Shown: positions 3,484 through 59,131 of the stretch, in pieces | Layout of the letters: every line of letters starts with the position of its first letter | Position numbering within the stretch: position 1 is the first letter of the stretch | Assembly: GCF_026802175.1 (NCBI RefSeq) | Contig: NZ_CP113797.1 | Location: 5,619,026-5,683,025, forward strand | Direction of reading: 5' to 3' | Source: Thermocoleostomius sinensis A174 | GTDB taxonomy: Bacteria > Cyanobacteriota > Cyanobacteriia > Elainellales > Elainellaceae | DNA: 64,000 nt | Translations under genes and position numbers: made by a program | Notes under the pieces: generated by a model | What the model saw: only the letters and a program-made list of their open reading frames with translations | Database searches by the model: none | What the model was told of the DNA's origin: nothing

Positions 3484-5712
3484 ATGGCAACAAAATTCCC
3501 CAAATTTAGCCAGGACTTGGCCCAAGACCCGACTACTCGTCGGATCTGGTACGGGATTGCCACTGCCCATGATTTCGAGAGCCACGATGGCATGACGGAA
3601 GAAAATCTTTACCAAAAGATTTTCGGTACTCACTTCGGTCATCTGGCAATCATTTTCCTCTGGACTTCCGGCAACCTCTTCCACGTCGCTTGGCAAGGTA
3701 ACTTCGAGCAGTGGGTCAAAGATCCGCTGAATGTCCGTCCCATCGCCCATGCGATTTGGGACCCCCACTTCGGTCAACCCGCTGTGGATGCTTTCACTCG
3801 AGCAGGTGCAACGAATCCGGTTAACATTGCCTACTCTGGTGTCTATCACTGGTGGTATACGATCGGCATGCGCACCAATGGCGATCTATATCAGGGTTCC
3901 ATCTTCTTGATGATCCTGGCGGCTATCTTCCTGTTTGCAGGATGGTTGCACCTTCAGCCTAAGTTTCGCCCCAGCTTGTCTTGGTTTAAGAACGCAGAAT
4001 CTCGTTTAAATCACCACTTGGCAGGTCTGTTTGGCGTTAGTTCGTTGGCTTGGACAGGTCACTTGGTTCACGTGGCTATCCCTGAATCGCGTGGTCAGCA
4101 TGTAGGTTGGAATAACTTCCTCACCACGCCGCCCCATCCCGATGGTCTGCTGCCCTTCTTCACAGGTAACTGGGGAGTGTATGCGGCTGATCCCGATACT
4201 GCCAATCATGTGTTTGGTACAGCTCAAGGTTCGGGAACGGCGATTCTCACCTTCTTAGGTGGTTTCCATCCTCAAACTGAGTCGCTGTGGTTGACAGATA
4301 TCGCTCATCACCATCTGGCGATCGCGGTGCTGTTCATCATTGCAGGTCACATGTACCGCACCAACTTTGGTATCGGTCACAGCATCAAAGAAATGCTGGA
4401 CTCCAAAGCAGGTTTGTTTAGCCCTCGCAGTGAAGGTCAGTTCAATCTGCCTCACCAAGGCCTGTACGACACCTACAACAACTCGCTGCACTTCCAGTTG
4501 GGCATTCACTTGGCTGCCCTGGGTGTGATCACCTCACTGGTGGCTCAGCATATGTATTCGCTGCCGCCCTATGCTTTTATGGCACGGGACTACACAACGC
4601 AGGCAGCCCTATATACCCATCACCAGTATATTGCTGGCTTCATCATGGTGGGTGCGTTTGCTCACGGTGCGATCTTCTGGGTACGGGATTATGATCCGGC
4701 AGCCAACAAGGGCAACGTGCTCGATCGCGTGTTGAATCACAAAGAGGCGATTATTTCTCACCTAAGCTGGGTGTCCCTCTTCCTTGGATTCCATACCTTG
4801 GGTCTGTATGTACACAACGATGTCATGCAAGCCTTTGGTACACCTGAAAAGCAAATTCTGATCGAGCCTGTGTTCGCTCAGTTCATCCAAGCCTCCCATG
4901 GTAAGGTGCTATATGGTTTCGATACCTTATTGTCGAATCCTGACAGCATTGCATCTACGGCTTGGCCAAACCACGGTAATGTCTGGTTAGGCGGCTGGTT
5001 AGATGCCATCAACGCCGGTAATAATTCGCTGTTCCTGACTATTGGACCTGGCGATTTTCTGGTGCACCATGCGATCGCGCTAGGTTTGCACACCACCACT
5101 CTGATTTTGGTGAAAGGTGCATTGGATGCGCGTGGTTCTAAGCTGATGCCTGACAAGAAAGACTTCGGCTATGCCTTCCCTTGCGATGGACCCGGTCGTG
5201 GCGGTACTTGCGATATCTCTGGTTGGGACTCGTTCTACTTAGCCATGTTCTGGATGCTGAATACGATCGGTTGGGTGACGTTCTACTGGCACTGGAAGCA
5301 CCTAGCAGTGTGGAGTGGTAACGTGGCTCAGTTCAACCAGTCGTCTCCAACGATCATGGGTTGGTTGCGCGATTATCTCTGGCTCAACTCGGCTCAGTTA
5401 ATTAATGGCTACAACCCATACGGCATGAATAATTTGGCGGTCTGGGCCTGGATGTTCCTGTTCGGACACCTGGTTTGGGCAACTGGATTCATGTTCTTGA
5501 TTAGCTGGCGTGGTTACTGGCAAGAGTTGATCGAAACGTTGGTTTGGGCGCACGAGCGCACACCTCTGGCAAACTTGATTCGCTGGAAGGACAAGCCCGT
5601 AGCCATGTCGATCGTTCAAGGTCGTTTGATTGGTCTAGCTCACTTTACGGTTGGCTACGTCCTCACTTATGCGGCCTTCCTGATAGCCTCAACGGCAAGT
5701 CGATACGGTTGA
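3484..5712 (+). CDS. psaB: Photosystem I P700 apoprotein A2
   Basis: Second large core subunit of photosystem I and partner of PsaA in the P700/FX reaction centre. It is 742 aa, in the normal range for PsaB. The FX-binding loop [18 protein letters not shown] and the conserved ends ([16 protein letters not shown] at the start, IASTASRYG at the end) are present. It follows psaA on the same strand and is closed by a strong hairpin terminator, so psaA-psaB is very likely one dicistronic transcript. No truncation or odd residue was seen. Confidence 0.99.
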
Positions 5713-5745
5713 TCGATCGTTTAGACATATCTGTTAGATAATTGA

Positions 5746-5775
5746 CTCCCCTGCCAAAAGGCGGGGGATTTTTGT
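5746..5775 (+). terminator. Intrinsic terminator of psaAB
   Basis: CCCCTGCC, loop AAAA, GGCGGGGG (one T-G wobble) followed by ATTTTTG, 35 bases after the psaB stop. Confidence 0.85.
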
Positions 5776-5912
5776 ATTTATCAAACTCAAAATTAACAAT
5801 CCGACAAAAAGTAACGCTTCGTTGCGCACTAAAATACGAGTAACCCGCAATATGTTACGTTCAATAGCAATACTCGATCGTCTTGTTGAACTTTTGAGAG
5901 AGGGAAACTATC

Positions 5913-6116
5913 TTGGTTGCTAATTTTCATCCACACGTTTCAAATCCTTATTCCCGTGAAGATTTTAGCGAGTACGTAGCTCATCTCCAGCTTCACATGG
6001 CGTTACAAGCCCGTAAGTTAGTGCCAACCTTGACTCAAACGTCAGACAGCCGAGAGCAACTGCTGCACCAAACCCAAGCTGATTTTGAAAAATTTGTTTC
6101 TCGACAAGTGCTGTAA
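5913..6116 (+). CDS. Small conserved-looking hypothetical protein (67 aa)
   Basis: I do not recognise a family. The reading frame starts with TTG at 5913, preceded by AGAGGGAAA at a suitable distance, and ends just before a good intrinsic terminator. This supports a real short gene. The product is soluble, rich in Gln, His and Leu, with no membrane segment or signal peptide; it is probably mostly helical. It stands alone between the psaAB terminator and an opposite-strand glyoxalase-like gene. Function unknown. Confidence 0.6.
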   Translation: MVANFHPHVSNPYSREDFSEYVAHLQLHMALQARKLVPTLTQTSDSREQLLHQTQADFEKFVSRQVL

Positions 6117-6171
6117 GAGGAACACGAACGAGATAAAATCCAAAGTATTCAAGCTTAATATCAACCTTGTG

Positions 6172-6205
6172 AAGGTCGGAATCCTGTAGCGATCCCGACC
6201 TTTTT
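6172..6205 (+). terminator. Intrinsic terminator after the 67-aa gene
   Basis: AAGGTCGG (6172-6179) pairs with CCGACCTT (6195-6202), and the run of five T residues begins at 6201. It lies 55 bases after the stop codon. Confidence 0.8.
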
Positions 6206-6238
6206 GTTGACTTGCTCTTGTTTGTTGACTTGCTCTTG
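6204..6238. repeat. 17-bp unit repeated twice with 18-bp period
   Basis: TTGTTGACTTGCTCTTG occurs at 6204-6220 and 6222-6238, directly after the terminator hairpin. Confidence 0.85.
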
Positions 6239-6268
6239 TTGGGTGGCTCGATCGAGCGTAACTGAGAT

Positions 6269-6637
6269 TTAGTGGGCCACACTTGCCACTGGCGCAGGTT
6301 CATACAGGTACTCAAACCAGTTGCCTTCTGGATCGCGTCCATAGAAAGAGGCAGTGCCGTCTCGATGCTCGTGGATGGGTGTAATGTGAACGCCATCAGC
6401 TTTCAAGCGCTCGTAGGCTGCATCCACTTCTGAACGATCGTTGAAAATGAAGCCAAAGTGCGGACCAGCTTGAGCATAGCTGGGGCTAAGCAGAGCTAAC
6501 CCATCCTCTCCAGCTTTCAGGTAAGCCCAATCGGGATCTTTCCATACCAACTCCATGCCCAGCGTTTGATAAAACTGGGCTGCGCGATCGAGATCTTCTA
6601 CACAAATGGCCACATGACCAATCCGTTTGAGTTTCAT
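6269..6637 (-). CDS. Glyoxalase/VOC-superfamily protein
   Basis: Single-domain vicinal-oxygen-chelate protein of 122 aa. It has the beta-alpha-beta-beta-beta signature: IGHVAICVEDLDRAAQFYQTLGM at the N-terminus and DPEGNWFEYLYEP near the C-terminus, with likely metal ligands His (HVAI) and Glu (WFEYLYE). Family members include lactoylglutathione lyase, fosfomycin/bleomycin resistance proteins and ring-cleavage dioxygenases; the exact substrate cannot be told from sequence. The ATG at 6637 is preferred over the in-frame TTG four codons upstream because it gives the normal family start (MKLKRIGHVAI). No clear ribosome-binding site was seen. It is convergent with the 67-aa gene and monocistronic. 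Confidence 0.85.
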   Translation of the reverse strand: MKLKRIGHVAICVEDLDRAAQFYQTLGMELVWKDPDWAYLKAGEDGLALLSPSYAQAGPHFGFIFNDRSEVDAAYERLKADGVHITPIHEHRDGTASFYGRDPEGNWFEYLYEPAPVASVAH

Positions 6638-6935
6638 GATGTGAGACAAGAGTGAAATAAAAATTAAAAAACTTTTCGCTTTCCCCAGTTCTATTTTAAG
6701 CCAGCTATTTTAGGTGTAGCGAGTATGCAAGTCTAGTACAGGATTCGGGAATCCTGGGTGTGAGTTGTGATGATCTCCATGTTGCTGCTCTCGCTAGTTA
6801 GTTTGTCGCTTGAATTGCTTTAATTTGAGTTGAGTTTAAGCCTTGATATTGAAGCACTTGATGTTGAAGCATTAGTCTTCTCGCTTTTCGATCGAGTTGT
6901 TCTCGCTTTATTTACCTCTTCACGTCTTAACAGCA

Positions 6936-10664: not shown

Positions 10665-11021
10665 TTACCGCAACGCCCACAGTCGATATTGCTGTTGCTC
10701 GAACGTTTTTTCTGCGTTCGTGTGGGTGTAGTAGCGAGTTTCAATCCACTCCCGCATTTCGTCTTCTGAGCCACGAGTGACAAATTCGCCAGAAACCGGA
10801 TCATAGGCTTGCCAATACAGTTGCCCACCTGCTCCAGTTCTCTGCCAAACCCGGAGTTCTGTTTTGCCACTGAGAGATTGCATAAAGCGCTGCCAAAGCT
10901 GGCTGAACCAGTTGGGGTGGGTCGTTTTTCCTTGAGCTTGGCCGCTTCCTTGAGCGCGATCTGCTAGTTGAAGACGCAAATCCCACCCGTGGCGCTCCAG
11001 ATAGTGCTTAGAGGTTTTCAT
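10665..11021 (-). CDS. Hypothetical protein (118 aa)
   Basis: I do not recognise a named family. The protein is soluble and basic in its first half, aromatic-rich (many Trp and Tyr), and ends with a motif-like stretch WQAYDPVSGEFVTRGSEDEM then REWIETRYY. The ATG at 11021 is chosen because GGAGG lies nine bases upstream; an ATG three codons earlier overlaps that site. It is monocistronic, divergent from the LysR gene. The composition suggests a conserved cyanobacterial protein rather than a chance frame, but no function can be given. Confidence 0.7.
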   Translation of the reverse strand: MKTSKHYLERHGWDLRLQLADRAQGSGQAQGKTTHPNWFSQLWQRFMQSLSGKTELRVWQRTGAGGQLYWQAYDPVSGEFVTRGSEDEMREWIETRYYTHTNAEKTFEQQQYRLWALR

Positions 11022-11262
11022 GGATAGCATCCTCCAAATTTGTTACTCTTCTAACGTATCGTTTTGTAAAATCAGTAACAAATCATTACATCGATGGATG
11101 GTATGTACGGAATTCATACCTTGATGATTGACGTTTCATACGATCGGGCGACTGTAGGATACACCGATCTTTGGCAGCATGTTGACATGGCTTCGTGTGC
11201 CCATCTCTGCTGATTCACGATCGTCTCAACTTTTGACCTGAACTTTACCAAGCCATCGTGCC

Positions 11263-12189
11263 ATGAATTTATCTCAGCTTCGGGCCGTTGTGGCGGTTGC
11301 CGATCGACAAAACTTTAGTGAAGCTGCCTTAGCTTTGGGCGTGAATCAATCCACTGTCAGCCACGCGATCGCCGCGTTGGAAGAAGAATTGGGTGTACCG
11401 TTGTTTGTGCGGGGACGACGAGGAGCCATCCCTACCCCAGCCGGAGAGCAAATTGCTGAGTATGCGCGTCAAGCCCTTCAGCTTTTGGACTTGATTGAGC
11501 GGGAAGCTAATCTACACAAAAGTTCGCGGGGTGGAAAAATTCGAGTTGCTGCCTTTCGTAGTGTGGCTACCCATGTGCTGCCGACGGTGATGGCTCAGTT
11601 TCGCCAACGGTTTCCTGGTGTCACCGTAACGATCGTGGATTGTCCAGATGAAGTGCGGGCTGAACAACTGCTGCGCGATGGGCGGGCAGATTTGGGTTTC
11701 ACCTATTTACCCACAGAGGCAGACTTTGAAGCGTGGGAAATTCTCCGAGATGAATATGTCGTGCTATTGCCCCCATCGATGGCGCTTAAGTCCGATCGGC
11801 TCACTTGGGCAGAACTAGCTGCCCTGCCGCTGATCTTGCCGCCAGCGGAACAAACTTGCGACGTAGGATTACACCAACACCTGACTGCTCATGCCGGTCG
11901 CCTCAATATTGTTTACAAAATTAACCAGGACTCCACGATCGTCGGGATGGTGATGCAGGGCTTGGGCGTGGGAATTTTACCGCGTTTGGCTGCGGAACCC
12001 TTACCCGAAGGCATTCAAGTGCAGAGCTTACCTGTGCCCTATGAGCGGGTAATTGGAGTAATCTTGTTATCGACTGCCCTGCATGTGCCTGCCGTCTTTG
12101 CGTTTTTAGACATGCTCAAGCAGGTTTACCAACTGCCTACAACATCATTCCCCCACTCAGCAAATTCGACTACTTTGCGATCGGTTTAA
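11263..12189 (+). CDS. LysR-family transcriptional regulator
   Basis: 308 aa, the usual length. A winged helix-turn-helix occupies residues 1-60 (FSEAALALGVNQSTVSHAIAA, then LGVPLFVR), followed by a periplasmic-binding-protein-like effector domain (about 90-295). The effector is unknown. LysR proteins usually control a neighbouring or divergent gene; here the divergent 118-aa gene lies 240 bp away and the AraC-type regulator follows 82 bp downstream, which may make it the target. The ATG at 11263 gives the canonical MNLSQLRAVVAVAD start. Confidence 0.95.
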   Translation: MNLSQLRAVVAVADRQNFSEAALALGVNQSTVSHAIAALEEELGVPLFVRGRRGAIPTPAGEQIAEYARQALQLLDLIEREANLHKSSRGGKIRVAAFRSVATHVLPTVMAQFRQRFPGVTVTIVDCPDEVRAEQLLRDGRADLGFTYLPTEADFEAWEILRDEYVVLLPPSMALKSDRLTWAELAALPLILPPAEQTCDVGLHQHLTAHAGRLNIVYKINQDSTIVGMVMQGLGVGILPRLAAEPLPEGIQVQSLPVPYERVIGVILLSTALHVPAVFAFLDMLKQVYQLPTTSFPHSANSTTLRSV

Positions 12190-12271
12190 GCGGGATTGTG
12201 GTGCGGCGCTATGAAGACGCAGAAGTGCTGATGAGAATATTGATTCACTGTTTGACAGATGGAGTCACAAA

Positions 12272-13240
12272 ATGAGTTGCATTGAGGCAAGCGACGATGG
12301 ATTTAGACCTAGGCAACACTTGTCTGCCACCCTCTTAGACTATCGCCAAGAGAATGCTTCGGATCAGATTGTTCCCAAACCTGCTGTTCTACAAAGTTCG
12401 GGATGGACTGGACTGCATTTTGAACTGCATCAGCAACCTGCTTTTGCCACCGATACTCATCAGCATACAATGCATGTGCTGGCTGGCGGGTTGATTGGTT
12501 CATCTAACCGAAATGCCCCCGGTACTCGATCGCTCGATGGCAAACGATCGCGAGAAAGACGGGACGCCAACGATATTGCGATTATTCCAGCAGGAATCTC
12601 CCATTCTTGTAGCTGGGATGTTTCGGCCCAATTTATGGTGCTGGCTATTGAGCCAATTCTGCTGCAACACATGGGGCAGGACTGGGTGAACCCTGATCAG
12701 ATTGAACTGCGACCGCAGTTTATGAGCGAGTCGGATGCGTTCATTCAAGGTATCTTTGCTACCCTCAAAGCAGAAGCAGAGATCGGGGGAATGGGCAGTT
12801 TCTTGTTAATTGACAGTCTCAAAACGTCCTTAGCGATTCATCTACTCCGGCATTATTGTGCCACGCGCCCCAAACTCTTCCAGAGTTCTAACGGCTTATC
12901 TCAAGCCGCGTTAACGCGGGTGAAAGACTACATCAATGAGCATTTGCATCAGGTGTTGAACCTGAGTAAGATCGCCGCGATCGCCCAACTTAGCCCCTAT
13001 CACTTTCTACGCTTGTTTAAGCAACGCATGGGAATCACGCCGCATCAATACATTTTGCAATGCCGGCTAAATCGAGCCAAATATCTGCTGCAACATAGTG
13101 AGTTAAGCATTGTCGAAATTGCTGCTCAGACAGGATTTTGTGATCAAAGCCATTTGACTCGATCGTGCAAACGCATCATGGGTATGACGCCTAAGCAACT
13201 CATGCAATGGCGATCTGGTTCTCGCAACAGGGTGGAATGA
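12272..13240 (+). CDS. AraC-family transcriptional regulator
   Basis: 322 aa. The C-terminal about 100 residues hold two helix-turn-helix motifs of the AraC/XylS type (LNLSKIAAIAQLSPYHFLRL and SIVEIAAQTGFCDQSHLTR). The N-terminal part has a cupin-like sensor layout (HQHTMHVLAGG, DIAIIPAGISHSC) with possible His metal or ligand contacts. GGAG lies seven bases before the ATG at 12272. It follows a LysR regulator and precedes a MAPEG membrane protein, all on one strand, so a small regulatory/detoxification unit is possible but unproven. Confidence 0.93.
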   Translation: MSCIEASDDGFRPRQHLSATLLDYRQENASDQIVPKPAVLQSSGWTGLHFELHQQPAFATDTHQHTMHVLAGGLIGSSNRNAPGTRSLDGKRSRERRDANDIAIIPAGISHSCSWDVSAQFMVLAIEPILLQHMGQDWVNPDQIELRPQFMSESDAFIQGIFATLKAEAEIGGMGSFLLIDSLKTSLAIHLLRHYCATRPKLFQSSNGLSQAALTRVKDYINEHLHQVLNLSKIAAIAQLSPYHFLRLFKQRMGITPHQYILQCRLNRAKYLLQHSELSIVEIAAQTGFCDQSHLTRSCKRIMGMTPKQLMQWRSGSRNRVE

Positions 13241-46874: not shown

Positions 46875-48263
46875 ATGGATTTATGGTCTAGTCCTCAACC
46901 ACCCTCTCGCAGCGCTGGTCCTAGCACGCCGCAAGGCGATCGCCAAGTTGCCGGGAAAGCCCTGCGTCAAACCGTACCGCGTTCTGCCCATCGTGACTGG
47001 CACCCGAACAGCGATCGTCCTGACCCACTAGAATTACTCGCAAAATCTAACCAACAGCGCATTCCAGATCTGATTCCGATTCGGCATTGGCGCATGATGC
47101 AGTCTCCGTTTACCTTTTTGCGCGGCAGTGCCATCATCATGGCAGCAGATTTGGCCACAACTCCGACGACTGGCATTCAAGTTCAAGCCTGTGGGGACTG
47201 TCATTTGCTCAACTTTGGCGGGTTTGCCACGCCCGAACGCAATCTCATTTTTGATCTAAATGACTTTGATGAAACGCTGATGGCTCCATGGGAGTGGGAC
47301 GTGAAGCGGCTTGTCACCAGTTTCATCTTAGCGGGTCGAGACTTGCAGTTGTCAGATCAGTCCAGTTCAGAAGCGGCACAGGCGGCTGTTCAAGCCTATC
47401 GATTGGCGATCGCTCAGTATAGCCAGATGCGAACGCTGGATGTGTGGTACGCCCGTCTAGATGCCGATGTGCTAATCGATCACGCGCCCGATGAAGACAC
47501 GCGCAAACATTGGGAAAAAATGGCCGCCAAGGCGTTTAACCGCACCCTAGACCAAGCCGTAGCCCAATTAACCGAAGTGGTGGAAGGACAGCGCCGCTTC
47601 ATCGATAATCCACCGCTCATCTATCACCTGCCCAATCAAGCCGAGTATTTTGAGCAAATTAGCAGTTTGTTTGAGCAGTACCGGGATACGCTTCAGGTCG
47701 ATCGCCAGTTCTTGCTCGATCGCTATCGTCTGGTAGATGTGGCCTTGAAAGTGGTGGGCGTTGGCAGTGTGGGGACGCATTGCGGCGTTGCCCTGTTGCT
47801 AGATGATAACGACGATCCGCTGCTATTGCAGTACAAAGAAGCCCGTCCCTCAGTGCTGGAACCCTATGCAGGCAAGAGTCCCTATCCCCACGAAGGACAG
47901 CGCATTGTCAGCAGACAGCGGTTGATGCAAGCCGCCAGCGATATTTTTCTGGGTTGGACTACAAATGTGGAAGGGCATGACTTTTATTTCCGGCAACTAA
48001 AAGATATGAAAACTGCCATCAAGCTCAAAGGGATGTCTGCCCGTAGCTTGGAAGATTACGCCGAGATTTGTGGCTCTGCCCTAGCGCGTGCCCATGCCCG
48101 CACAGGGGACTCTGCTCTGATCAGCGGCTACTTGGGCAAAAGCGATGCTTTTGATCAGGCCGTGACGGATTTCGCCGTGGCCTACGCTTACCAAGTGGAG
48201 CAGGACTATCAAAGGTTGGTGGAAGCGGTGCAGTTTGGTCACGTTGAGGCAAAACTGGGGTAG
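46875..48263 (+). CDS. DUF2252 family protein
   Basis: 462 aa. RIPDLIPIRHWRMMQSPFTF, followed by GDCHLLNFGGFATPERNLIF and DLNDFDETLMAPWEWDVKRL, is characteristic of DUF2252, a family with a protein-kinase-like (aminoglycoside-phosphotransferase-like) fold whose substrate is unknown. The HLLNFG and DLNDFDE motifs look like the catalytic and metal-binding loops of that fold. It stands alone after the amidohydrolase, with a 201-bp spacer, and may be unrelated to it. Confidence 0.9.
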   Translation: MDLWSSPQPPSRSAGPSTPQGDRQVAGKALRQTVPRSAHRDWHPNSDRPDPLELLAKSNQQRIPDLIPIRHWRMMQSPFTFLRGSAIIMAADLATTPTTGIQVQACGDCHLLNFGGFATPERNLIFDLNDFDETLMAPWEWDVKRLVTSFILAGRDLQLSDQSSSEAAQAAVQAYRLAIAQYSQMRTLDVWYARLDADVLIDHAPDEDTRKHWEKMAAKAFNRTLDQAVAQLTEVVEGQRRFIDNPPLIYHLPNQAEYFEQISSLFEQYRDTLQVDRQFLLDRYRLVDVALKVVGVGSVGTHCGVALLLDDNDDPLLLQYKEARPSVLEPYAGKSPYPHEGQRIVSRQRLMQAASDIFLGWTTNVEGHDFYFRQLKDMKTAIKLKGMSARSLEDYAEICGSALARAHARTGDSALISGYLGKSDAFDQAVTDFAVAYAYQVEQDYQRLVEAVQFGHVEAKLG

Positions 48264-49000: not shown

Positions 49001-49031
49001 TAAAAGAAAACTGGGGGCATAACACCCCCAG
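49001..49031 (-). terminator. Intrinsic terminator of the mgtA-mgtE cluster
   Basis: CTGGGGG and CCCCCAG form a perfect 7-bp stem with a 7-nt loop. Read on the minus strand, TTTTCTTTTA follows. It lies 14 bases after the mgtE stop. Confidence 0.85.
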
Positions 49032-49044
49032 CAGAAACTGTGAA

Positions 49045-50421
49045 TCAAGTTTGAATGCCTAACAGTAAGGAAACCAGATAAAAGTAGAGCAGTAGCCCGG
49101 TAAAGTCCTTGATGGTGGTAATGAACGGATCGGCAGCCGGACCATGATCAAAGCCGAATCTCAGTAGAATCCAGGGCAAGAGGGCACCCAAGACCGCTGC
49201 TAAGGTGACGACCGCGAACAGAGAAAGGCCAACAGCGATGCCAAGTTGGGGTACTTCATTGGGGGCACCCTGCCAGAAATAGGCGATCGTTCCCCCTGCT
49301 AGACCTAAAATCGCGCCCATGATTAGACCAATACGGAATTCCCGGAACAAGTAACCTCCGTAATGCCGAATGTCGATATGTTGCCATGCCAGTCCACGGG
49401 CAAACACAGTTGTGGATTGGGTTCCAACATTTCCACCCATGTCCATCACCACAGGAATGAAAATCGCCACCACAACGACGGCTTCCAAAATTTCCTCAAA
49501 GTTCTGGATCACACCCCCGACAACCATACCGCCAATCAGGGTAATAATTAGGCACAGAATCCGAAGTTGAACGGCATAGCGAATCGGCCCTCGAACTAAC
49601 TTTTCACTCCACGCTTGGTCACGGGTTAACAGCCCCCCGACCCCCGCCTGAGCCAGAGCCGCGCTGGAGGCTTCTTCTTCGATCAGGTCAATTACATCGT
49701 CAAAGGTAAGATCGCCCACAAGCCGCCCCTCGCTGTCTAGTACCGGAATGGCAGGCAGGTCATAATCTTTCAGCAAACGTGCCGCTTGCATCTCAGGAGC
49801 AATGGCACTGATAGCAATGTCCCGACCATCTGCCAACTGCTCAATCAGCAGTTCTGGGTTGGCTTTAATCAAGCGCACTGTGCGGACAAAGCCTCGATAC
49901 ATCCCCTGGGGATCAATGATGAACACTAAATCCAGGTCGTTGTCTCCAAGTTGAGATTCGCGCACAGATGCCAATACGGCACTGACTTTTGAACCTTCTC
50001 GCACTGCCAAATAGCGCAGGTTCATCCGCCGCCCAGCACTGCCTTCGGGGTAGCCCAGCAGCAAATCGACGGCCTCACGTGAGGTAGGTCTCAGTTGGCT
50101 GAGCAGACGCTTGGTTACTTTGGCGGGTAGCTCTTCAAACAAACGGACTCGTTGTTCAGGTTCAAGGGCTTCTAAGATTGGTAGGATTTCAGGATCGGTC
50201 ATTTGCCGAATCAGGTCAGCTTGCTCGTCCGGACTGAGCATTTCAAAGACCGCGATCGCCTTGTCCTTATCCAACAATCGAAACGCCAGAACCCGCTGGG
50301 GTGGATCAATTTCTAGCAACGATCGTACCAGTTCAGCTACGCTGAGTTGATTAGCTGTTAACTTGGCAGCACCTAATCCCTTGGGTTGATTGAGTAATTC
50401 TTTGAATGCATTCTGTGCCAT
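49045..50421 (-). CDS. mgtE: Magnesium transporter MgtE
   Basis: 458 aa Mg2+ channel/transporter of the inner membrane. The cytosolic N-domain (about 30-135, with repeated LL..LDP..R.AFRLLDKDKAIAVFEML-type helices), two CBS domains (about 140-265, including AARLLKDYDLPAIPVLDSEG) and five membrane helices (about 285-457) are all seen. The pore motif MDMGGNVGTQS is intact. AGGAGG precedes the start. The N-domain and CBS pair gate the pore in response to cytosolic Mg2+ in well-studied relatives. It is the last gene of the cluster, 94 bp after a detached MgtE-N-like gene. Confidence 0.97.
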   Translation of the reverse strand: MAQNAFKELLNQPKGLGAAKLTANQLSVAELVRSLLEIDPPQRVLAFRLLDKDKAIAVFEMLSPDEQADLIRQMTDPEILPILEALEPEQRVRLFEELPAKVTKRLLSQLRPTSREAVDLLLGYPEGSAGRRMNLRYLAVREGSKVSAVLASVRESQLGDNDLDLVFIIDPQGMYRGFVRTVRLIKANPELLIEQLADGRDIAISAIAPEMQAARLLKDYDLPAIPVLDSEGRLVGDLTFDDVIDLIEEEASSAALAQAGVGGLLTRDQAWSEKLVRGPIRYAVQLRILCLIITLIGGMVVGGVIQNFEEILEAVVVVAIFIPVVMDMGGNVGTQSTTVFARGLAWQHIDIRHYGGYLFREFRIGLIMGAILGLAGGTIAYFWQGAPNEVPQLGIAVGLSLFAVVTLAAVLGALLPWILLRFGFDHGPAADPFITTIKDFTGLLLYFYLVSLLLGIQT

Positions 50422-50515
50422 GAAAAACCTCCTCTCGTTTACAACAGTTGAAGCTGAGTAGTTACCATTTGCCTAAGTCAGTAAGGTTTCCTCCTTTTCT
50501 GATTGATGACAGTGC

Positions 50516-50908
50516 TTACACGGTGCGAACCATGATGCCTCGCAGGGCAGCGGTGGCGCGACAAAATTCACTCGCCATTGTGGACACAAATTCCTCGCGC
50601 ATGGCAGTCGGCAAATTGGCAAAAATCTGGTGACGATCGATCGGACGCAGTGCAGTCAGCAACCAGATCGCTTCTGGCAAATCTATCTCCTGAAATAGCT
50701 TTGTCTGCTCACTCACCTGAAGCTGCTTGAAGACTGAAATAGCTTTGTCTTTTTGGAGCAGTAATAGGATCAATCCCTGGCGATGAAGGGGAATCTTGGG
50801 CAGCGATCGGGCGATCTCCGCTACACTGAGATGGTTAACTTGGCGTTCCATCGCATCTAGTTGGGTCAGGTTTTCTAACAAGATGTCCAAAACTGTGCAA
50901 GACATCAT
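50516..50908 (-). CDS. Stand-alone MgtE N-domain-like protein (130 aa)
   Basis: Contains the helical repeat pattern of the MgtE N-terminal domain: SVAEIARSLPKIPLHRQGLI, LLQKDKAISVFKQLQVSEQT and LLTALRPIDRHQIFANLPT parallel the same region of the neighbouring full MgtE. There is no CBS domain or membrane segment. The MgtE N-domain helps lock the channel at high Mg2+; a free version might bind the channel, the ATPase or another partner. This role is an inference. AGGTG precedes the ATG. It lies between another domain-only gene and mgtE. Confidence 0.8.
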   Translation of the reverse strand: MMSCTVLDILLENLTQLDAMERQVNHLSVAEIARSLPKIPLHRQGLILLLLQKDKAISVFKQLQVSEQTKLFQEIDLPEAIWLLTALRPIDRHQIFANLPTAMREEFVSTMASEFCRATAALRGIMVRTV

Positions 50909-50971
50909 TCACCTCTCTGTATTGAAAAATTAAGAAAAAAATTGAAAACTATTACTGTTGTTGTTCCAAAA

Positions 50972-51412
50972 TTAATCACCGCAATCATCGATCTCCCACC
51001 AATCGGGATAATCATCATTAGAGTCATCGGTGAATGACGCTGTTGGTAGTTGCGGGATGTTCAACAGTTCGTGAACAGCCGCTTGAAATTCTTCGTGTAA
51101 TTTGGCAATCAGTCCATCAATCGCCTCAGTGGGCAAACCAGCTAGGAGTTGCTGTCGGTCTTCGGGTCCCATTGCTTCTAGGACTGGTATCAGCGCTGCG
51201 GCATCCATGGATTGCAGTAACTCCATCTGAATTGGAGGTGGAAGATAAGTAAGAACTGCGATCGCCAATCCTTCTCCCAATAGCTCAAAGGCAAGCAATC
51301 GTTGTTCCGGATCAATTTCAGCTAGCGATCGTGCCCGCTCTTCAATGCGTTGAAGTTGACTAAAGACGGCTGAAATTTCTGGTTGTAATGGGGGCAAGGC
51401 GTTGTCAGCCAT
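50972..51412 (-). CDS. Second stand-alone MgtE N-domain-like protein with acidic tail (146 aa)
   Basis: The core repeats the same pattern: SLAEIDPEQRLLAFELLGEG, VLTYLPPPIQMELLQSMD, VLEAMGPEDRQQLLAGLPTE. It then extends into an acidic, Trp/Asp-rich C-terminal tail (DDSNDDYPDWWEIDDCGD) that could bind divalent cations. No CBS domain or membrane helix is present. A strong AGGAGGTGA precedes the ATG. It is more divergent from mgtE than the next gene. Proposed regulatory partner, unproven. Confidence 0.8.
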   Translation of the reverse strand: MADNALPPLQPEISAVFSQLQRIEERARSLAEIDPEQRLLAFELLGEGLAIAVLTYLPPPIQMELLQSMDAAALIPVLEAMGPEDRQQLLAGLPTEAIDGLIAKLHEEFQAAVHELLNIPQLPTASFTDDSNDDYPDWWEIDDCGD

Positions 51413-51575
51413 TGTTCACCTCCTGAATCACTTCTGGAATGAAACGTCATTCGGTCATCGGACAAAGGCGCAGGATTATCCTTGCGAAGAATCGTTTGCT
51501 ACAGCAAAGGCATGAGTGAGGGCGCAGCAATAGGCAGACTAGGGTGAAATGCCTCGCTTCAAATACTTCAAATTG

Positions 51576-51929
51576 CTAATGGTCAACGCTGATAAGTTGA
51601 AGGCATCGGCGCGTCACCCGTTTTTCCTGCCACTTCAGCCAGAGCATCGTGACCCGAAAACCACAAAACAGCAGGAACCGTCGCCACAGAGAATCGCTGG
51701 AGGCAGGTTCATCAGGTACAGGCAGATTCAGACGCAATAAACGAATGGCATCGGCTGCGGCTGAGCGTTCCGCGTTCCGGGCAAGCATCAAGAGAATCTC
51801 CTGACGAGATTTCAACGTTTCACGATTTGCCAGAGCACAATAGAGATGGAATGCCAATCGCTGGCTGCAATAACGCTGCTGCAAAACCATGCCCAGTTGA
51901 GAGCGCTGCAATGAGAATTGGGTCGCCAT
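51576..51929 (-). CDS. Hypothetical helical protein of the magnesium cluster (117 aa)
   Basis: Not recognised with confidence. The first 75 residues have the spacing of a ferritin/rubrerythrin-like helix pair (QRYCSQRLAFHLYCALANRE; EILLMLARNAERSAAADAIR), but the usual Glu/His iron ligands are mostly missing. A basic, hydrophobic C-terminal stretch (FLLFCGFRVTMLWLKWQEKR) could associate with membranes. GGGGAAGG precedes the ATG, and the gene starts 12 bp after the previous stop, so it is probably translationally linked within the operon. Confidence 0.65.
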   Translation of the reverse strand: MATQFSLQRSQLGMVLQQRYCSQRLAFHLYCALANRETLKSRQEILLMLARNAERSAAADAIRLLRLNLPVPDEPASSDSLWRRFLLFCGFRVTMLWLKWQEKRVTRRCLQLISVDH

Positions 51930-51941
51930 CCTTCCCCTCCC

Positions 51942-52274
51942 CTAATCGGCATCCAGGGCAGGGGGAAATGCGCTGTTAGCCAAGTTATCTATTGTCATCA
52001 GGGCATTGAATGCAGAATGACAAGATATTGGGCTAGAAGGAATGTGATTGCTATCGGCGATTAAGGACAGATAGGGCTGTAATTCGTCCCAAAGGGTCAG
52101 CAATTGCTGATAGGTTTCATGGGTTGGGAGTTTGCCACCCGTATGCAACCCAGCAAGAAGGGATACCCGATAGGCAAAGGACTGAAGATGAATGTTAAAT
52201 TCCTGGCTGAACTGGTTCTTGTCGCCCCGATAACGGGCGATCGGGCAGGCAAACTGTTGAAGTTGAGTTTTCAT
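51942..52274 (-). CDS. Hypothetical protein of the magnesium cluster (110 aa)
   Basis: No family recognised. Soluble, Leu/Gln/His-rich, probably helical (FNIHLQSFAYRVSLLAGLHT, ETYQQLLTLWDELQPYLSLI). The ATG at 52274 is preceded by GGAGG with six bases spacing. It is in the middle of the minus-strand unit, 109 bp after the 45-aa membrane peptide and 12 bp before the next gene, hence presumably related to magnesium handling. Confidence 0.65.
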   Translation of the reverse strand: MKTQLQQFACPIARYRGDKNQFSQEFNIHLQSFAYRVSLLAGLHTGGKLPTHETYQQLLTLWDELQPYLSLIADSNHIPSSPISCHSAFNALMTIDNLANSAFPPALDAD

Positions 52275-52383
52275 GATCGCCTCCAAAGATACGTAGCTTG
52301 GTTTACTGAAGATGCTTCGCTTGAGCAGTTTTTGGGCAACGCTTGAAGAAGATCCGGCTGCCCGTAGACATGAATAGTAGACA

Positions 52384-52521
52384 TTAATATCGGGGTTGGC
52401 GCTGTTGGGGAACGCCCTGTTTCATCATCACCACGACGATGAAATAAACGAGGGCATAGTATCCAATGAAGATGGCAGCAACGGCGAGGAGCGCTGCCCA
52501 GACATTTTCTAATACCAGCAT
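52384..52521 (-). CDS. Single-helix membrane micropeptide downstream of mgtA (45 aa)
   Basis: One membrane helix (about residues 7-32: ALLAVAAIFIGYYALVYFIV) and a short polar, basic tail. GGAG lies nine bases before the ATG at 52521. Tiny single-helix proteins that stabilise or regulate P-type ATPases are known (MgtS/MgtR with MgtA/B, KdpF with KdpB); this one sits directly after mgtA and may play a similar role, although it is not a sequence match that I can claim. Confidence 0.65.
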   Translation of the reverse strand: MLVLENVWAALLAVAAIFIGYYALVYFIVVVMMKQGVPQQRQPRY

Positions 52522-52662
52522 GGAACAAATCTCCAAATCATAAATGGGAATCGATCGAAACATCAAAAAAACAGGTAGGAATCCGAAGTAGGAAAGGTGC
52601 CAGCTACATTCGCTTCCTGAGTATTGCAGGCAGCCAGCACCAGCGAGAGGAGAGTCTTACCC

Positions 52663-55401
52663 CTATAACCACTTACCAAAGGTGCGGATATAGAACCCTT
52701 TGAGATATTGAGTCAGTAGACAATAGGAACCCAAGATCAACCACAGCCAGATAAAGTAACTGGCAGGTAGGGGAACCATGCCCAATCCCGCCCCGATTGG
52801 GGTAAAGGGCAGGATCATGCCCACAATGATGGCTGTTCCGGTTGAGAGCAACACGGGCAGCGAGGGCCAGCTTTGCAAAAAGGGAACGCGAGCCGTCCGC
52901 AACATATAGACCACCAAGGTTTGGGAAAGCAGCCCTTCCACAAACCAGCCTGAATTAAACAGTTGCACCTCATCTGGTGTGTTTGCACTAAAGACAAACC
53001 ACATGACGATGAAGGTGGCATAGTCAAAGATGGAGCTAATCGGGCCAATGAACAGCATGAACCGCCCGATGTTGGGTACATTCCACTTCTGGGGTTTGCG
53101 GAGAAAATCCTTATCCACGCTGTCGAAGGGAATCGTGGTTTGGGACAGGTCGTAGATTAGATTCTGGGTGAGTAGTTGAATCGGCTGCATGGGCAGGAAG
53201 GGCAGCACCGCACTCGACCCCATCACGCTGAAGACATTGCCAAAATTGGAACTGGCGGTCATGTTCAGATACTTGAGAATGTTGGCAAAGGTGCGCCGTC
53301 CTTCAATCACCCCTCGCTCTAGCACCATCAGGTTCTTTCCCAGCAGAATAATATCCGCCGATTCCTTGGCAATGTCTACGGCCGTATCCACAGAGATGCC
53401 TACATCCGCATCCCGCAGGGCTGCCGCATCGTTAATGCCATCGCCCATGTAGCCCACAGTGTGCCCTTGGTTCCGCAACAGACGAACAATGCGGGCTTTT
53501 TGCAGAGGAGAAACTTTGGCAAAGACTGTGGTGGTATCCAGTTGGGCTTTTAGTTCCTCATCGCTCATCCGCTCAATCTGGCTCCCTACTAGCACCCCCT
53601 GAACGTCTAGGTTCACCTCTTTGCAAACTTTGCGGGTGACAATGTCGTTGTCGCCAGTGATCACTTTCACAGCAACGCCATTGTCCTGGAGGGCGGCGAT
53701 CGCCTCAATGGCACTATCCTTGGGCGGGTCAAGGAAGGCCAGATAGCCCACCAGAATTAGGTCAACTTCATCCTGGGCGTTGTAGGTGGGAACCGTATCC
53801 AGGGGAATGGGGATTTCCTTATAGGCAACGGCAATTACCCGAAAACCATCTTCGTTCAGGCTTTGCGTCACCCGTTGCCCTTCCATCCGCACAAACTCAC
53901 TCATGGGCACAATTGCGCCCCGATATTTGGCATGGGAGCAAACGTTGAACAGTTCCTCCACCGCTCCTTTGCAAATCAGAATGTGCTTGCCCGCTGCCTG
54001 ACCAACCCGCGACTCTACCACCACCGACATCCGCCGCCGCACAAAGTCGAAGGGAATTTCATCGACCTTGGCATAGTTTTCCGCTGGTTTGAGTGCTGTC
54101 TTCAACTCCACATGCTCCAGCACCGCCACATCCAGCAAGTTTTTTAAGCCGGTTTGGTAGTAGCTATTCAAATAGCCATATTCCAGCGGTTGATTATCCT
54201 CGTAGCCGTGGATATCCACATGCCGTTCCAGGACGATTTTATCCAGCGTTAATGTACCGGTTTTGTCGGTGCAGAGAATATTCATTGCGCCAAAGTTTTG
54301 GATAGCATTGATACGCTTCACCACCACTTTTTGATTTGCCATGACGACTGCTCCCCGCGCTAGGTTTGCGGTCACAATCATGGGTAGCATTTCGGGGGTC
54401 AGCCCCACCGCAATGGACAGGGAAAACAGCAGCGCATCTAGAAAATTGCCTTTGGTAAGCAATTGAATCAAAAAGACGATTGGCACCATCACCGCCATGA
54501 AGGTAATCAACAGGTAGCTGACCCGGTTGACGCCTTTTTCAAAGCTGGTGAGAACCCGCTTACCGACAATGTTTTTTGCCAGAGAGCCGAAGTAGGTGCG
54601 ATCGCCTGTAGACACCACCACTGCCGTCGCTGCGCCGCTGACCACGTTAGTGCCCATAAAGCAGACAGTGGGAATATCTAGCGCACTCACCTGATCTTGA
54701 TTCATCTGTACATCTGCCCGCTTTTCCACCACACTGCCCAGAGTGTCATACTTTTCCACGGGCAGAGATTCACCCGTCAGCACCGCCTGGCTGACGAACA
54801 AATCCTTTGAGGTCAACAGTCGCACATCCGCCGGAATCATATCTCCGGCAGATAACGCCACCACATCGCCCGGAACCAACTCGCTCAGGGGAACCTCTCG
54901 GCGAGATCCGGGGGTGTCCAGGCGATCGCGGCGAATCACCGTTGCCGTCGTACTGACCAGTGCTTTCAGCTTTTCCGCCGCCTGGGTGGAGCGGTATTCC
55001 TGGAAAAACCGCAGGAAACCACTGACCAGCACCATGACAGATAAGATAGTCACCGCCGTCAGGTCTTTATCTTCTGGTTCAGCCAAGGCATAGTCTAGAA
55101 CATACGAAACAACCGCTAGCCCTATCAATACCCAGACAAAGGGATTGTTGAACGCCTTGAATAGTTGCGCGTACCAGGTTGGCGGCTTTTCGTGACTGAC
55201 TTCGTTTTTGCCATACCTTCGCAGGCGATCGCGGGCATCGGCTGCGGTCAAGCCTTTGCGGTTACTGTTGAGCGATCGCAACACTTGGTCTATGTTGTTG
55301 CCCGCTTCTTCTAAGGCACGTAGCGACAGTTTGGCGCTTTCCAGAGAGCGATCGCTGGCAGTAACTCGTCGCCGATTCGTTGGCGTTGGGGTATTTTGCA
55401 T
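52663..55401 (-). CDS. mgtA: Magnesium-translocating P-type ATPase
   Basis: 912 aa P3B-type ATPase importing Mg2+. A cation-ATPase N-terminal domain (about 45-105) precedes the actuator motif LTGESLPV, phosphorylation site CTDKTGTLTLDK (about 380), KGA(VEELF) nucleotide loop, TGDN, and hinge GYMGDGINDAAALRDADVGI. The late membrane part contains NLIYDLSQTTIPFD, typical of MgtA/MgtB. Length and domain order are normal. GAGAGG precedes the ATG at 55401. It is the second gene of the cluster, 60 bp after the 59-aa gene. Confidence 0.96.
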   Translation of the reverse strand: MQNTPTPTNRRRVTASDRSLESAKLSLRALEEAGNNIDQVLRSLNSNRKGLTAADARDRLRRYGKNEVSHEKPPTWYAQLFKAFNNPFVWVLIGLAVVSYVLDYALAEPEDKDLTAVTILSVMVLVSGFLRFFQEYRSTQAAEKLKALVSTTATVIRRDRLDTPGSRREVPLSELVPGDVVALSAGDMIPADVRLLTSKDLFVSQAVLTGESLPVEKYDTLGSVVEKRADVQMNQDQVSALDIPTVCFMGTNVVSGAATAVVVSTGDRTYFGSLAKNIVGKRVLTSFEKGVNRVSYLLITFMAVMVPIVFLIQLLTKGNFLDALLFSLSIAVGLTPEMLPMIVTANLARGAVVMANQKVVVKRINAIQNFGAMNILCTDKTGTLTLDKIVLERHVDIHGYEDNQPLEYGYLNSYYQTGLKNLLDVAVLEHVELKTALKPAENYAKVDEIPFDFVRRRMSVVVESRVGQAAGKHILICKGAVEELFNVCSHAKYRGAIVPMSEFVRMEGQRVTQSLNEDGFRVIAVAYKEIPIPLDTVPTYNAQDEVDLILVGYLAFLDPPKDSAIEAIAALQDNGVAVKVITGDNDIVTRKVCKEVNLDVQGVLVGSQIERMSDEELKAQLDTTTVFAKVSPLQKARIVRLLRNQGHTVGYMGDGINDAAALRDADVGISVDTAVDIAKESADIILLGKNLMVLERGVIEGRRTFANILKYLNMTASSNFGNVFSVMGSSAVLPFLPMQPIQLLTQNLIYDLSQTTIPFDSVDKDFLRKPQKWNVPNIGRFMLFIGPISSIFDYATFIVMWFVFSANTPDEVQLFNSGWFVEGLLSQTLVVYMLRTARVPFLQSWPSLPVLLSTGTAIIVGMILPFTPIGAGLGMVPLPASYFIWLWLILGSYCLLTQYLKGFYIRTFGKWL

Positions 55402-55461
55402 CGTTAGCCTCTCGCCGATGGGATTGATCGATGGGATTGATCTCAGAAAACTAGATTTCGA

Positions 55462-55641
55462 TTAGGTCGAAGGCAGCAGGCAAGGCTCACTGGGTTGTTC
55501 CTCCTGGACAGCTTTGCGAGTAGCCGCACGCTTCATCCAGCCATCAATCCAGCGCCCAAACAGCACTTTGAGAAACTGTCCGCAAACAATTGCCAGCACA
55601 TCATCAATATGATCGAGAACAAATTCAAACAGTACGAACAT
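55462..55641 (-). CDS. Small protein leading the mgtA cluster (59 aa)
   Basis: Starts at ATG 55641 after an almost perfect ribosome-binding site (AAGGAGG with eight bases spacing). The N-terminal 35 residues are hydrophobic and amphipathic with an acidic patch (FVLDHIDDVLAIVCGQFLKV), followed by a basic segment (KRAATRKAV) and a Pro-rich tail. It could be a membrane-associated regulator of MgtA or a translated leader. No homologous family is recognised. Confidence 0.65.
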   Translation of the reverse strand: MFVLFEFVLDHIDDVLAIVCGQFLKVLFGRWIDGWMKRAATRKAVQEEQPSEPCLLPST

Positions 55642-56114
55642 GACAATCACCTCCTTGGGCGGCTGAAACTTGCAATCTAAAGCTAATTTGTAGAGAAAAG
55701 CAGCACAATTTGAGGGACTAAACTTTCAACTTTAAAACATAGAAAGTCAGCCCGTTATAACACCGCAAATGGGTGATTTGAAACAGGAACAATACCAAAT
55801 TTTTCAATAGAAACTAGTCTGCTTTTGCTGGCTATCAAATAGCAAATAATTGATCCTTGCAAATCAATTTATTTGATTGCCGCGATCAATCATCAGCCGT
55901 TTAAATTACCGCAAACCAGAAGCTATTTCTATTCAACTTGATTTTGATCAGCACAACATCTTGTGAACTACTACAGTGAACCAAATGCCTACTGTCAGTT
56001 CAACTCGAAATGCTCATCTGCTATCGAGGTAGGGATCTAAAGTCTTTAATCGTTCATCTCCTTTATCAGTACAATCGCCGTGTCCAGCGGCGATCAGGAA
56101 ATGAACCTGGGACT
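55642..56114. other. Upstream region of the magnesium cluster
   Basis: No gene. This AT-rich stretch should contain the promoter and leader of the minus-strand unit. I looked for the conserved blocks of the Mg2+-sensing M-box (ykoK) leader and did not see them; another type of Mg2+ control remains possible. Confidence 0.5.
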
Positions 56115-56264
56115 CTAAGCCAGAGTCACGTCGGACAGATTCATCAAAACGATCGCCCCCAGACCACGCGCCGGATGAGGGTCAGAATCTTTGTCAGAGA
56201 CTTGATCAGACATCAGAGTTTCTTGAGTTGTTGCAACGCTGCAACTACTGCCAGAAGCCTCCAT
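56115..56264 (-). CDS. Possible micropeptide with strong ribosome-binding site (49 aa)
   Basis: ATG at 56264 is preceded by AAGGAG at seven bases. The peptide begins MEASGSSCSVATTQETLMSD, is polar in the first two thirds and ends with GLGAIVLMNLSDVTLA. No family is recognised. The ribosome-binding site is the main support. Confidence 0.4.
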   Translation of the reverse strand: MEASGSSCSVATTQETLMSDQVSDKDSDPHPARGLGAIVLMNLSDVTLA

Positions 56265-56775
56265 TAATGAACTCCTTAAAACAATGAGAGAATAATGAGT
56301 AAACAATTAAATTGCGATGCTGTCATCGCCGTTTACAACTATAGCCTTAGAACTTTTTTTATGTCAACCAATTTAATCCTAATCAATGCGAATAATGTGA
56401 AAACATGAATAACAGAAATTTTGTTCAAAAAACCTCAAAAAATTGCTTAGGGAGGGTGTTAAGGTACAAGTCACCTTTGTACTCTCGTCTAAATCTTTCT
56501 CCCAAAACAGGAGAGGAACATTGAAGCCTTTCTTCCCTGTTCTCACACATAGGAGTAGGGATTGGGAGATGAGGGCAAATTAACTGATAACCCTCGATGA
56601 CCCTCACTCTAAATCCCCCTCCTAGAGCCGGAGAGGGACGTTGAAGACTATTCGATCGCTTCGACTGCCCGTCCCCTCTTGTGGAAGCAGGCGTTTACCT
56701 TGAATGACATACGGAAAAAGGTCGAGAGGAACGCTGATTATCCTTTCGCCTTTTCCCTCATCTTTCACAGATGCT
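56265..56775. other. Intergenic region with duplicated element
   Basis: No gene seen. Two 39-base related copies (56488-56526 and 56608-56646) of a CTAAATC...GAGAGG.AC.TTGAAG element lie 120 bases apart. Part of it is downstream of the minus-strand NTRC gene. Confidence 0.55.
56488..56646. repeat. Two copies of a 39-bp element, 120 bp apart
   Basis: Both copies start TCTAAATC and end ACATTGAAG/ACGTTGAAG, with an internal CTCC...GGAGAGG hairpin-like core. Related elements are common in cyanobacterial spacers. Confidence 0.7.
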
Positions 56776-58176
56776 CTACAACGCAACTGGAGTGGCTACA
56801 TGCTCTTCAATCATCTGGCGATACTGGCTCTTGGGCTTCACGCCTTTCATCTCGCCAACTAGGGCCTTGTTTTTAAAGAACTGAATGGTAGGAGTTCCAA
56901 CCACGCCAGCCGATTCGGCAATTTCTGGATCTTCGGTGATGTCGATTTCCACATAGTGGACGCGATCGGCAAACTCATTCACCACTTTCTCTAGAATGGG
57001 CTTCAGTGTATGACAGGGACCACAGGTAGGAGAGGCATATTTGACGATGATCAGGCGATCGCTTTCGTGATAAAGCTTGCGCAAGGCATAGCCACCTGCA
57101 TGATGAGTACGAGCGATGTCAAATTCGGCCACTTGTTCCTGCTCGGTTTTGCGCTGAGGCTCGACAGTCGGTCGTTCAGACGCCTCAGTTTGATGGAATT
57201 CTTGCAGTAGTCCGTTTGAAGACAGCCAACGCTCGGCTAACATGGCCGCCATACAGCCTGTTCCTGCGGCTGTAATCGCCTGACGAAACTCATGATCTTG
57301 GACATCGCCAGCGGCATAGACACCTTCAACATTTGTTTCCACGTGGTTGCGCGTCACCACATAGCCAACATCATCCAATTCAATTTGTCCTTTGAACAGA
57401 GACGTGTTGGGGGTGTGACCGATCGCATAGAATAGCCCCTTTGCTGGCAAGTCAGCTTCTTCCCCTGTTCGTACATTTTTGATTCTGACGCCCGTCATCC
57501 GATCGTTCTCGCCAAATACATCGACGGCTTCAGTGTTCCAGTGCACCGTAATTTTGGGATTTTTCAAGACGCGATCTTGCATGGCCTTGCTGGCGCGCAT
57601 TTTTTCACCCCGCACCAACATATGGACGTGAGAGCCGTATTTCGTTAGATAAACCGCTTCTTCGGCTGCCGAGTCGCCTCCGCCAATTACCGCCAGATCT
57701 ACATTTCGGAAAATGGGGGTAGCTCCATCACAGATGGCACAGGCGGAAATCCCTCGACTCCAAAACTGTTTCTCACAGGGCAAGCCCAACCGCTTAGCCG
57801 TAGCTCCGGTGGCAATGATGATACTGTGGGTCCGCACTTCGCGTTCGTCCGATCGAACCACAAACGGGCGTTGGCTCAGATCTACGTGCGTCACGTCCTC
57901 GGTAACAAGCTCGGCTCCCCAGCGCAAGGCCTGCGCCTTCATTTGATCCATCAAGTTTGGTCCGGTGATGCCGTCTGGAAACCCGGGAAAGTTTTCTACC
58001 TCCGTCGTGGTCATCAATTGCCCACCCGGTAGCCCTCCCGCCTGAAAGCCCTCAAACACAAACGGCTTCAGGTTTGCGCGTGCCGCATAAATCGCAGCGG
58101 TATAGCCTGCCGGGCCAGAACCGATAATGACAACGTTCTCTACCGTTGGGTTTGTCATAGCTGTAGATAAACTCAT
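56776..58176 (-). CDS. NADPH-thioredoxin reductase fused to thioredoxin (NTRC)
   Basis: 466 aa. An FAD domain ([19 protein letters not shown]) and an NADPH domain ([17 protein letters not shown]) flank the reductase dithiol CAIC (about 146-149); a C-terminal thioredoxin domain carries [13 protein letters not shown] (about 385). NTRC transfers electrons from NADPH to 2-Cys peroxiredoxins and other targets, and is typical of cyanobacteria and chloroplasts. The start may be 58176 or the ATG at 58158. A second thioredoxin-type gene lies 136 bp upstream on the same strand. Confidence 0.97.
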
Positions 58177-58312
58177 AACGACTACGCTTAATATAGCTTA
58201 TCATACTTTCATTCCATTCCATCAGCAAATTTTCGATGGGGCGAGTTTACCAGTCGGTTGAATCACGGCAGTTTACTTCAGCAGTTTTAATCGATCGTCC
58301 TACATTGCTGAT

Positions 58313-59131
58313 TTAGTAAAGTGTCAGAGTCAATTGTTTACGATAGTGTTTGGTTAATGGATGATCATCTCCCAGCAGCGTGAAGATCAAAAGCATGGTT
58401 TTGCGAGCACCATCACCTCGGTAGGTTCGATCGGTACTAACAATTGCCAACAGCCCTTGTAACGCCATTTCGTAGTCTTCTGCCACTATCTGTTCAATAG
58501 CTGCAAAAAAGGCAGGGTCTAACTCGTGCTCCGGTGGTTTTTCGCTTTCTAACGTCAGTTGAATTAAGTGCCCCAATGCTTCGGCTTGGGCATAAAATTC
58601 TCGTTCGTTTGGTTCAATGGACGCTAATAACCCTTCAGCGGCGGCTAGCTCATCCTGCTGAATCAAAAACTTGGCATAGGCAATCGCAATTTTGCGATCA
58701 TGCGGATGTTGTTCCAACAACTGAGCAAACACCGCCTTAATTTTCTGACGATCGCCCGTTGCTAGAACGGCCCTGGCGGCTTCAAGCCCCAGGTCTGCTT
58801 TAGATTTCAGATTCAGCCTCGATAACAGTTCCCGCAATTGAGGCTCTGGTAGCACGCCTACAAAGCCGGAATACATTTGCCCCTGATGCACAACGCGGAC
58901 ATCGGGTACGCCCTCGACATGATAGATACTGGCTAAATCGGGATTGCGATCGATATCAACCTTGGCAAGAACGAAATCGTATTCTGTCACCAGTTTTTCC
59001 AGCATGGGCTTTAACATTTGACATGGCCCACACCATTGCGCATAAAAATCTACCAACACAGGTCGTTGATGCGATGCTTCCACAACATCGGTCATAAAGT
59101 TGCTGCGATCGACTTCTACAGAACTGCCCAT
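58313..59131 (-). CDS. Thioredoxin-TPR protein (CnoX/YbbN-like)
   Basis: 272 aa. An N-terminal thioredoxin domain with intact WCGPC active site (YAQWCGPCQMLKPMLEK, about residue 33) is fused to a C-terminal TPR-like helical region (LLEQHPHDRKIAIAYAKFLI, DPAFFAAIEQIVAEDYEMAL). E. coli CnoX lacks the second Cys and acts as a chaperone; here both Cys are present, so redox activity is expected. GGGAGGT precedes the ATG. It lies 5' to NTRC on the same strand, so the pair may be functionally linked. Confidence 0.93.
   Translation of the reverse strand: MGSSVEVDRSNFMTDVVEASHQRPVLVDFYAQWCGPCQMLKPMLEKLVTEYDFVLAKVDIDRNPDLASIYHVEGVPDVRVVHQGQMYSGFVGVLPEPQLRELLSRLNLKSKADLGLEAARAVLATGDRQKIKAVFAQLLEQHPHDRKIAIAYAKFLIQQDELAAAEGLLASIEPNEREFYAQAEALGHLIQLTLESEKPPEHELDPAFFAAIEQIVAEDYEMALQGLLAIVSTDRTYRGDGARKTMLLIFTLLGDDHPLTKHYRKQLTLTLY

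Follow-up and report, generated by a model that had tools for sequence, protein, structure and literature searches.

A conserved leader in front of an eight-gene Mg2+ unit of Thermocoleostomius sinensis A174 suggests that this cyanobacterium switches on Mg2+ uptake when ribosomes fail on an acidic leader peptide. We regard it as probable that a leader-peptide attenuator controls the Mg2+-uptake operon; what we infer here is that Mg2+ is the signal and that ribosomes drop off, as well as the kind and direction of the output and the functions of the small proteins. The leader, about 470 nt before the p59 gene, consists of a promoter-like site, a 49-codon upstream open reading frame (uORF) and a hairpin right after the uORF stop. 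In the window (the whole stretch of 64,000 nucleotides analysed from this 5.8 Mb genome) the features, in the direction of transcription, are:

56338-56367, minus strand: promoter-like site TTGACA-18-TATAGT, 11 of 12 consensus matches
56115-56264, minus strand: uORF1, encoding the 49-aa leader peptide MEASGSSCSVATTQETLMSDQVSDKDSDPHPARGLGAIVLMNLSDVTLA, with profile homologues in several families
56136-56145, minus strand: uORF segment GATGAATCTG, able to pair with the hairpin 5' arm (56109-56100) in an alternative fold
56052-56106, minus strand: hairpin that follows the uORF stop, with AAGGAG (56063-56058) in the 3' arm
56021-56050, minus strand: possible, doubtful second tiny ORF, with an ATT start here and ATG in several relatives
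55462-55641, minus strand: p59, small amphipathic/hydrophobic protein, no family above curated cut-off
52663-55401, minus strand: MgtA, Mg2+ P-type ATPase, 912 aa, TIGR01524 at 1273 bits (cut-off 611)
52384-52521, minus strand: p45, single-helix membrane micropeptide, 45 aa, no family above curated cut-off
51942-52274, minus strand: DUF7219-like protein, 110 aa, PF23856 at 6e-13
51576-51929, minus strand: p117, orphan protein, 117 aa, predicted helical with low confidence, no family above curated cut-off
50972-51412, minus strand: N146, solo MgtE_N protein, 146 aa, PF03448 at 7e-15, above cut-off, as sole match
50516-50905, minus strand: N129, solo MgtE_N protein, 129 aa, PF03448 at 6e-12, above cut-off, as sole match
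49045-50421, minus strand: MgtE, full-length Mg2+ channel, 458 aa, TIGR00400 at 295 bits, aligning with the solved MgtE 2yvx
49010-49032, minus strand: intrinsic terminator 3' of mgtE, a 10-pair stem and a T run

All eight ORFs reported on the minus strand by a preliminary description of this DNA are present and match the identities given there. Most have good Shine-Dalgarno sequences, as had been stated, and the clear terminator placed after mgtE is the 10-pair stem at 49032-49010. The start of the unit had been set at 55650, which overlooked the conserved leader at 56367-56052 that also belongs to it. The intergenic gaps across the eight genes measure 12-163 nt and contain no terminator-like site, the sole intergenic one being that after mgtE. 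The eight genes are presumably transcribed as one unit. MgtA matches the equivalog model TIGR01524 over its full length, which places it in the MgtA family. The maximal 19-residue hydropathy of p45 is 2.47, as expected for the one membrane helix of an MgtS-like micropeptide, and its conserved core AALFAVAAIFIGYYALIYFIVVV is found 3' of mgtA in six other loci (L066, L100, L103, L104, L105 and L110). The p59 protein is 85-88% identical in L051, L100 and L102, and 54% identical over a partial span in L104. The small genes keep 80-90% identity in other genomes and are therefore not chance ORFs. The single-sequence AlphaFold model of p117 is poor (pLDDT 58).

The genome encodes a second MgtA (G000:C1:3939791-3942418, 54% identical) and three further copies of MgtE. 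Just upstream of the unit, at 56776-59131 on the minus strand, lie genes for a protein resembling a thioredoxin reductase-thioredoxin fusion and for a 272-aa thioredoxin-like protein, both judged by sequence only. On the other side, a DUF2252 gene (46875-48263, plus strand) is convergent with the Mg2+ unit. A clearly similar protein is encoded at 10987-12414 on the minus strand of L066, also convergent with the cluster there (genome G208). The DUF2252 gene is possibly a further accessory gene.

The cluster had been proposed to form an integrated Mg2+ unit, to be checked by conservation of its gene order. The small genes do accompany mgtA and mgtE in other families, and this comparison of genomes supports the proposal in part; the complete eight-gene order is seen in this genome only, and elsewhere the genes form a reshuffled or partial set. 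The order is leader-mgtA-p45-mgtE-DUF7219-soloN-p117 in G208 (L066), leader-p59-mgtA-p45-DUF7219 followed by the start of p117 in L100, and the same five elements with a short N129-like match in L104. Shorter versions are leader-mgtA-p45-DUF7219 (L110), leader-mgtA-p45 (L103 and L105) and leader-mgtE-DUF7219 (L099, L113 and L114). In L051 (G024) the leader, p59, p45, DUF7219 and p117 are present without mgtA. A second p59-sized ORF precedes p59 in this locus (4617-6847), and the mgtA and mgtE genes of G024 are on another contig. At many leader loci the gene after mgtA or mgtE is the DUF7219-like one; among the control genomes, DUF7219 was found in Synechococcus elongatus only. The p117 gene is present in five of the 370 genomes of the class, plus G208, and each copy found has mgtA or mgtE as a neighbour, adjoins these accessory genes (L051) or is about 1.2 kb away from corA (L242). 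Among the matches listed in a scan of genome contigs for MgtA, most came from distant bacteria, and the L119 sequence of Cyanocohniella sp. LLY was the only close named relative. Since its genes recur across families in partial or reshuffled form, the Mg2+ gene unit is, as far as gene neighbourhood tells, a genuine but loose functional module.

Two of the proteins had been said to resemble the MgtE N-terminal domain alone, and N146 and N129 indeed match PF03448 and nothing else. The CBS pair and the membrane domain were searched for in both proteins and neither was found, so that N146 and N129 are solo N domains and not channels. One clade (support 98/94) unites the N146-type sequences from the window, L065, L066 and L243, which on this phylogeny are a conserved family. 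The N129-type sequences from the window and L065 group together (support 98/93), on long branches for which attraction is possible. L065 (9052-10608) encodes, behind two solo N proteins, an MgtE of 208 aa that is reduced to its membrane part; L243 (6727-8139) encodes an MgtE of 312 aa made of CBS and membrane parts, with a solo N protein and p117 encoded behind it. A soluble gating role is plausible because MgtE lacking its N domain adjoins solo N domains in these two loci. Gene neighbourhood and domain loss thus point to N146 and N129 as putative subunits that gate or tune MgtE in trans. The solo MgtE_N proteins could instead be decaying or selfish mgtE duplicates without a gating role, as might be suspected from their long branches, from the full gene order in a single genome and from the lack of these genes in most relatives. 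We find this somewhat unlikely, because the N146-type clade spans distant genomes with intact ORFs that are always beside mgtE, and because the neighbouring MgtE in L065 and L243 has no N domain of its own. When Mg2+ is removed from the solved MgtE, its N domain moves away from the CBS domain (PMC8104411). It is debated whether the N domain holds the channel closed or is required for opening (PMC3435302). Its natural separation from MgtE offers a direct test of the function of the debated domain.

A peptide profile was built from seven uORF sequences; homologues were found in other families, and their downstream genes were checked. About 25 leader loci from about ten cyanobacterial families were collected and, where the sequence suffices, they precede mgtA, mgtE or the module. 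The first genes lie about 300-1000 nt or more beyond the leaders, each with its own ribosome-binding site, and nearly every aligned leader has a TTGAC-type -35 element about 100 nt 5' of its uORF. In the window the peptide reads MEASGSS...SDKDSDPHP, with an AAGGAG ribosome-binding site in front. Nearly all peptides begin with M(E/D)xxGSS and, in the first 30 residues or so, continue with an acidic, proline-containing stretch like SDEDP. The acidic residues are retained in L229 and L230, where the motif has no proline, and the peptides of L067 and L236 are shorter and without the usual motif. The latter two belong to a weak leader variant before mgtE (L067 at 7316, and L236; genomes G100 and G037), with a short uORF MRCYSEMDDPGGSHYC... 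whose acidic residues lie close to what may be an inner start; the mgtE gene of G100 is interrupted. Peptide or RNA matches in L112, L115, L117, L118 and L231-L235 were rejected as chance, no mgt gene being nearby, and the G004 leader does not precede mgtA but is situated after it, at a contig end. In close pairs of leaders pS is mostly larger than pN (0.43 versus 0.11 for L103/L106, for instance), and indels in the uORF preserve the reading frame. By this substitution pattern, the uORF is under coding selection.

This peptide could in principle report something other than Mg2+ through translation, namely the availability of particular amino acids, the activity of EF-P or of ABC-F proteins, or ribosome stress in general, with the transporters as just the output. 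Ser, Asp and Pro are recurrent in it, and E. coli has an ABC-F protein, EttA, that works on acidic motifs (PMC11282234). However, the collected leaders precede Mg2+ transporter genes or the module and not amino-acid genes, and the acidic character is constant while codon content varies, so that we judge such a signal unlikely.

Covariation supports two RNA folds that involve the uORF and exclude each other. The hairpin, aligned in 21 sequences with 18 pairs, is 91.7% paired with a covariation of 0.271, versus at most 0.147 for slid controls. The covariance model R1 built on it found leaders on which it had not been trained, upstream of mgtE in G088 and in G145 and upstream of mgtA in Cyanocohniella sp. 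LLY (L119). In the A174 genome the leader model finds only one leader. The alternative pairing, first spotted on six of the sequences later scored, is 87.3% paired over 24 leaders with a covariation of 0.304, versus at most 0.163 when slid, and none of 500 shuffles reaches covariation this high. Pairing is kept in L109, where C-G replaces T-A at the cost of one adjacent pair, and in L116, where GATGA:TCATC has become GGTGA:TCACC. The alternative pairing is absent or weak in L104, L119, L229 and L230. Because the segment GATGAATCTG doubles as codons for Met-Asn in most leaders, part of its conservation comes from coding constraint. A leader RNA that works as a Mg2+ riboswitch or as a protein-binding site, with a uORF incidental to sensing, would fit the conserved hairpin and alternative pairing and the survival of the GATGAATCTG-type RNA segment in L048, though the uORF has already stopped there, but it is quite improbable given that the uORF has coding selection and frame-keeping indels and that the pairing logic passes through it.

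In the leader-peptide attenuator that we propose, ribosomes would translate the uORF through to its stop when Mg2+ is ample. This would open any pairing of the uORF end, the hairpin would form and expression would be low. At low Mg2+, the acidic/proline stretch (about codons 20-31) would make ribosomes stall or drop off; the freed uORF end could then pair with the hairpin 5' arm, the hairpin would be blocked and the transporter genes would be expressed. The products would be an ATP-driven importer with p45 as its micropeptide partner, and a channel possibly tuned by solo MgtE N domains. The response to Mg2+ is likely since the shared leader has an MgtL-like acidic/proline uORF. As for the output, Rho is absent from this genome (best match 21 bits versus a cut-off of 509), and the output is thus not Rho termination here. 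A search for an intrinsic terminator common to the leaders did not find one. Both results count against the attenuator, as do the deviating peptides of L229, L230, L067 and L236, the leaders in which the alternative pairing fails or is weak, the Met-Asn coding of its segment, and the distance of the first genes with their own ribosome-binding sites. In several mgtA-type leaders, the AAGGAG of the hairpin 3' arm is followed by the second tiny ORF, which reads MKGFRSLPR, MKSLKSPFW or MNKFQSTS in relatives. This element may be the output, but in the window the tiny ORF starts with ATT.

Mg2+ sensing by ribosome destabilisation on a leader peptide has been worked out mainly in enteric bacteria, with Rho as the output, and photosynthetic cells require much Mg2+ for chlorophyll. 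No Rfam family and no known Mg2+ element was found in the window or in the leaders of the relatives examined. The literature covered, which leaves aside most subscription papers, gave no description of these leaders. The leader is widespread in cyanobacteria and apparently undescribed. More tentatively, a Rho-independent attenuator based on ribosome destabilisation at low Mg2+ might have evolved independently in cyanobacteria, with the MgtE N domain detached as trans-gating subunits in some lineages; this combined reading is possible, and we do not hold it with confidence. If true, a sequence-unrelated leader that follows the same logic in Rho-less photosynthetic bacteria would mean that ribosome-based sensing of Mg2+ arose by convergence; it would also pose the question how such an attenuator works without Rho.

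In E. coli, ribosomes fall off MgtL at EPDP in low Mg2+, the RNA refolds and Rho termination is prevented; acidic stretches are effective in the first 30 residues (PMC11282234). The cyanobacterial leader resembles the mgtL leader of enterobacterial mgtA in its short uORF with early acidic/proline codons, present upstream of a Mg2+ transporter in the window and in most leaders, and in its exclusive RNA folds. In contrast to mgtL, the peptide is longer and the motif lies at about codons 17-31 instead of 2-5, no sequence relation is seen, Rho-dependent termination is not the output in this Rho-less genome, and the leader also precedes mgtE. Acidic codons are used similarly in Salmonella mgtQ (PMC8092293), where a small ORF and alternative stem-loops also govern a Mg2+ transporter (mgtC-mgtB); mgtQ is intergenic and near the mgtB start, whereas the cyanobacterial leader lies hundreds of nucleotides upstream of the first gene. 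Like the MgtS and KdpF micropeptides of P-type pumps, p45 is a tiny single-helix membrane peptide linked to such a pump, but it is encoded directly behind mgtA, matches no annotated family and is a putative partner. Finally, the MgtE of the window is a full member of the family of channels with N, CBS and membrane domains, and the solo proteins share the N domain with it; the difference lies in separate N-domain proteins encoded in the same operon and, elsewhere, beside an MgtE without its N domain.
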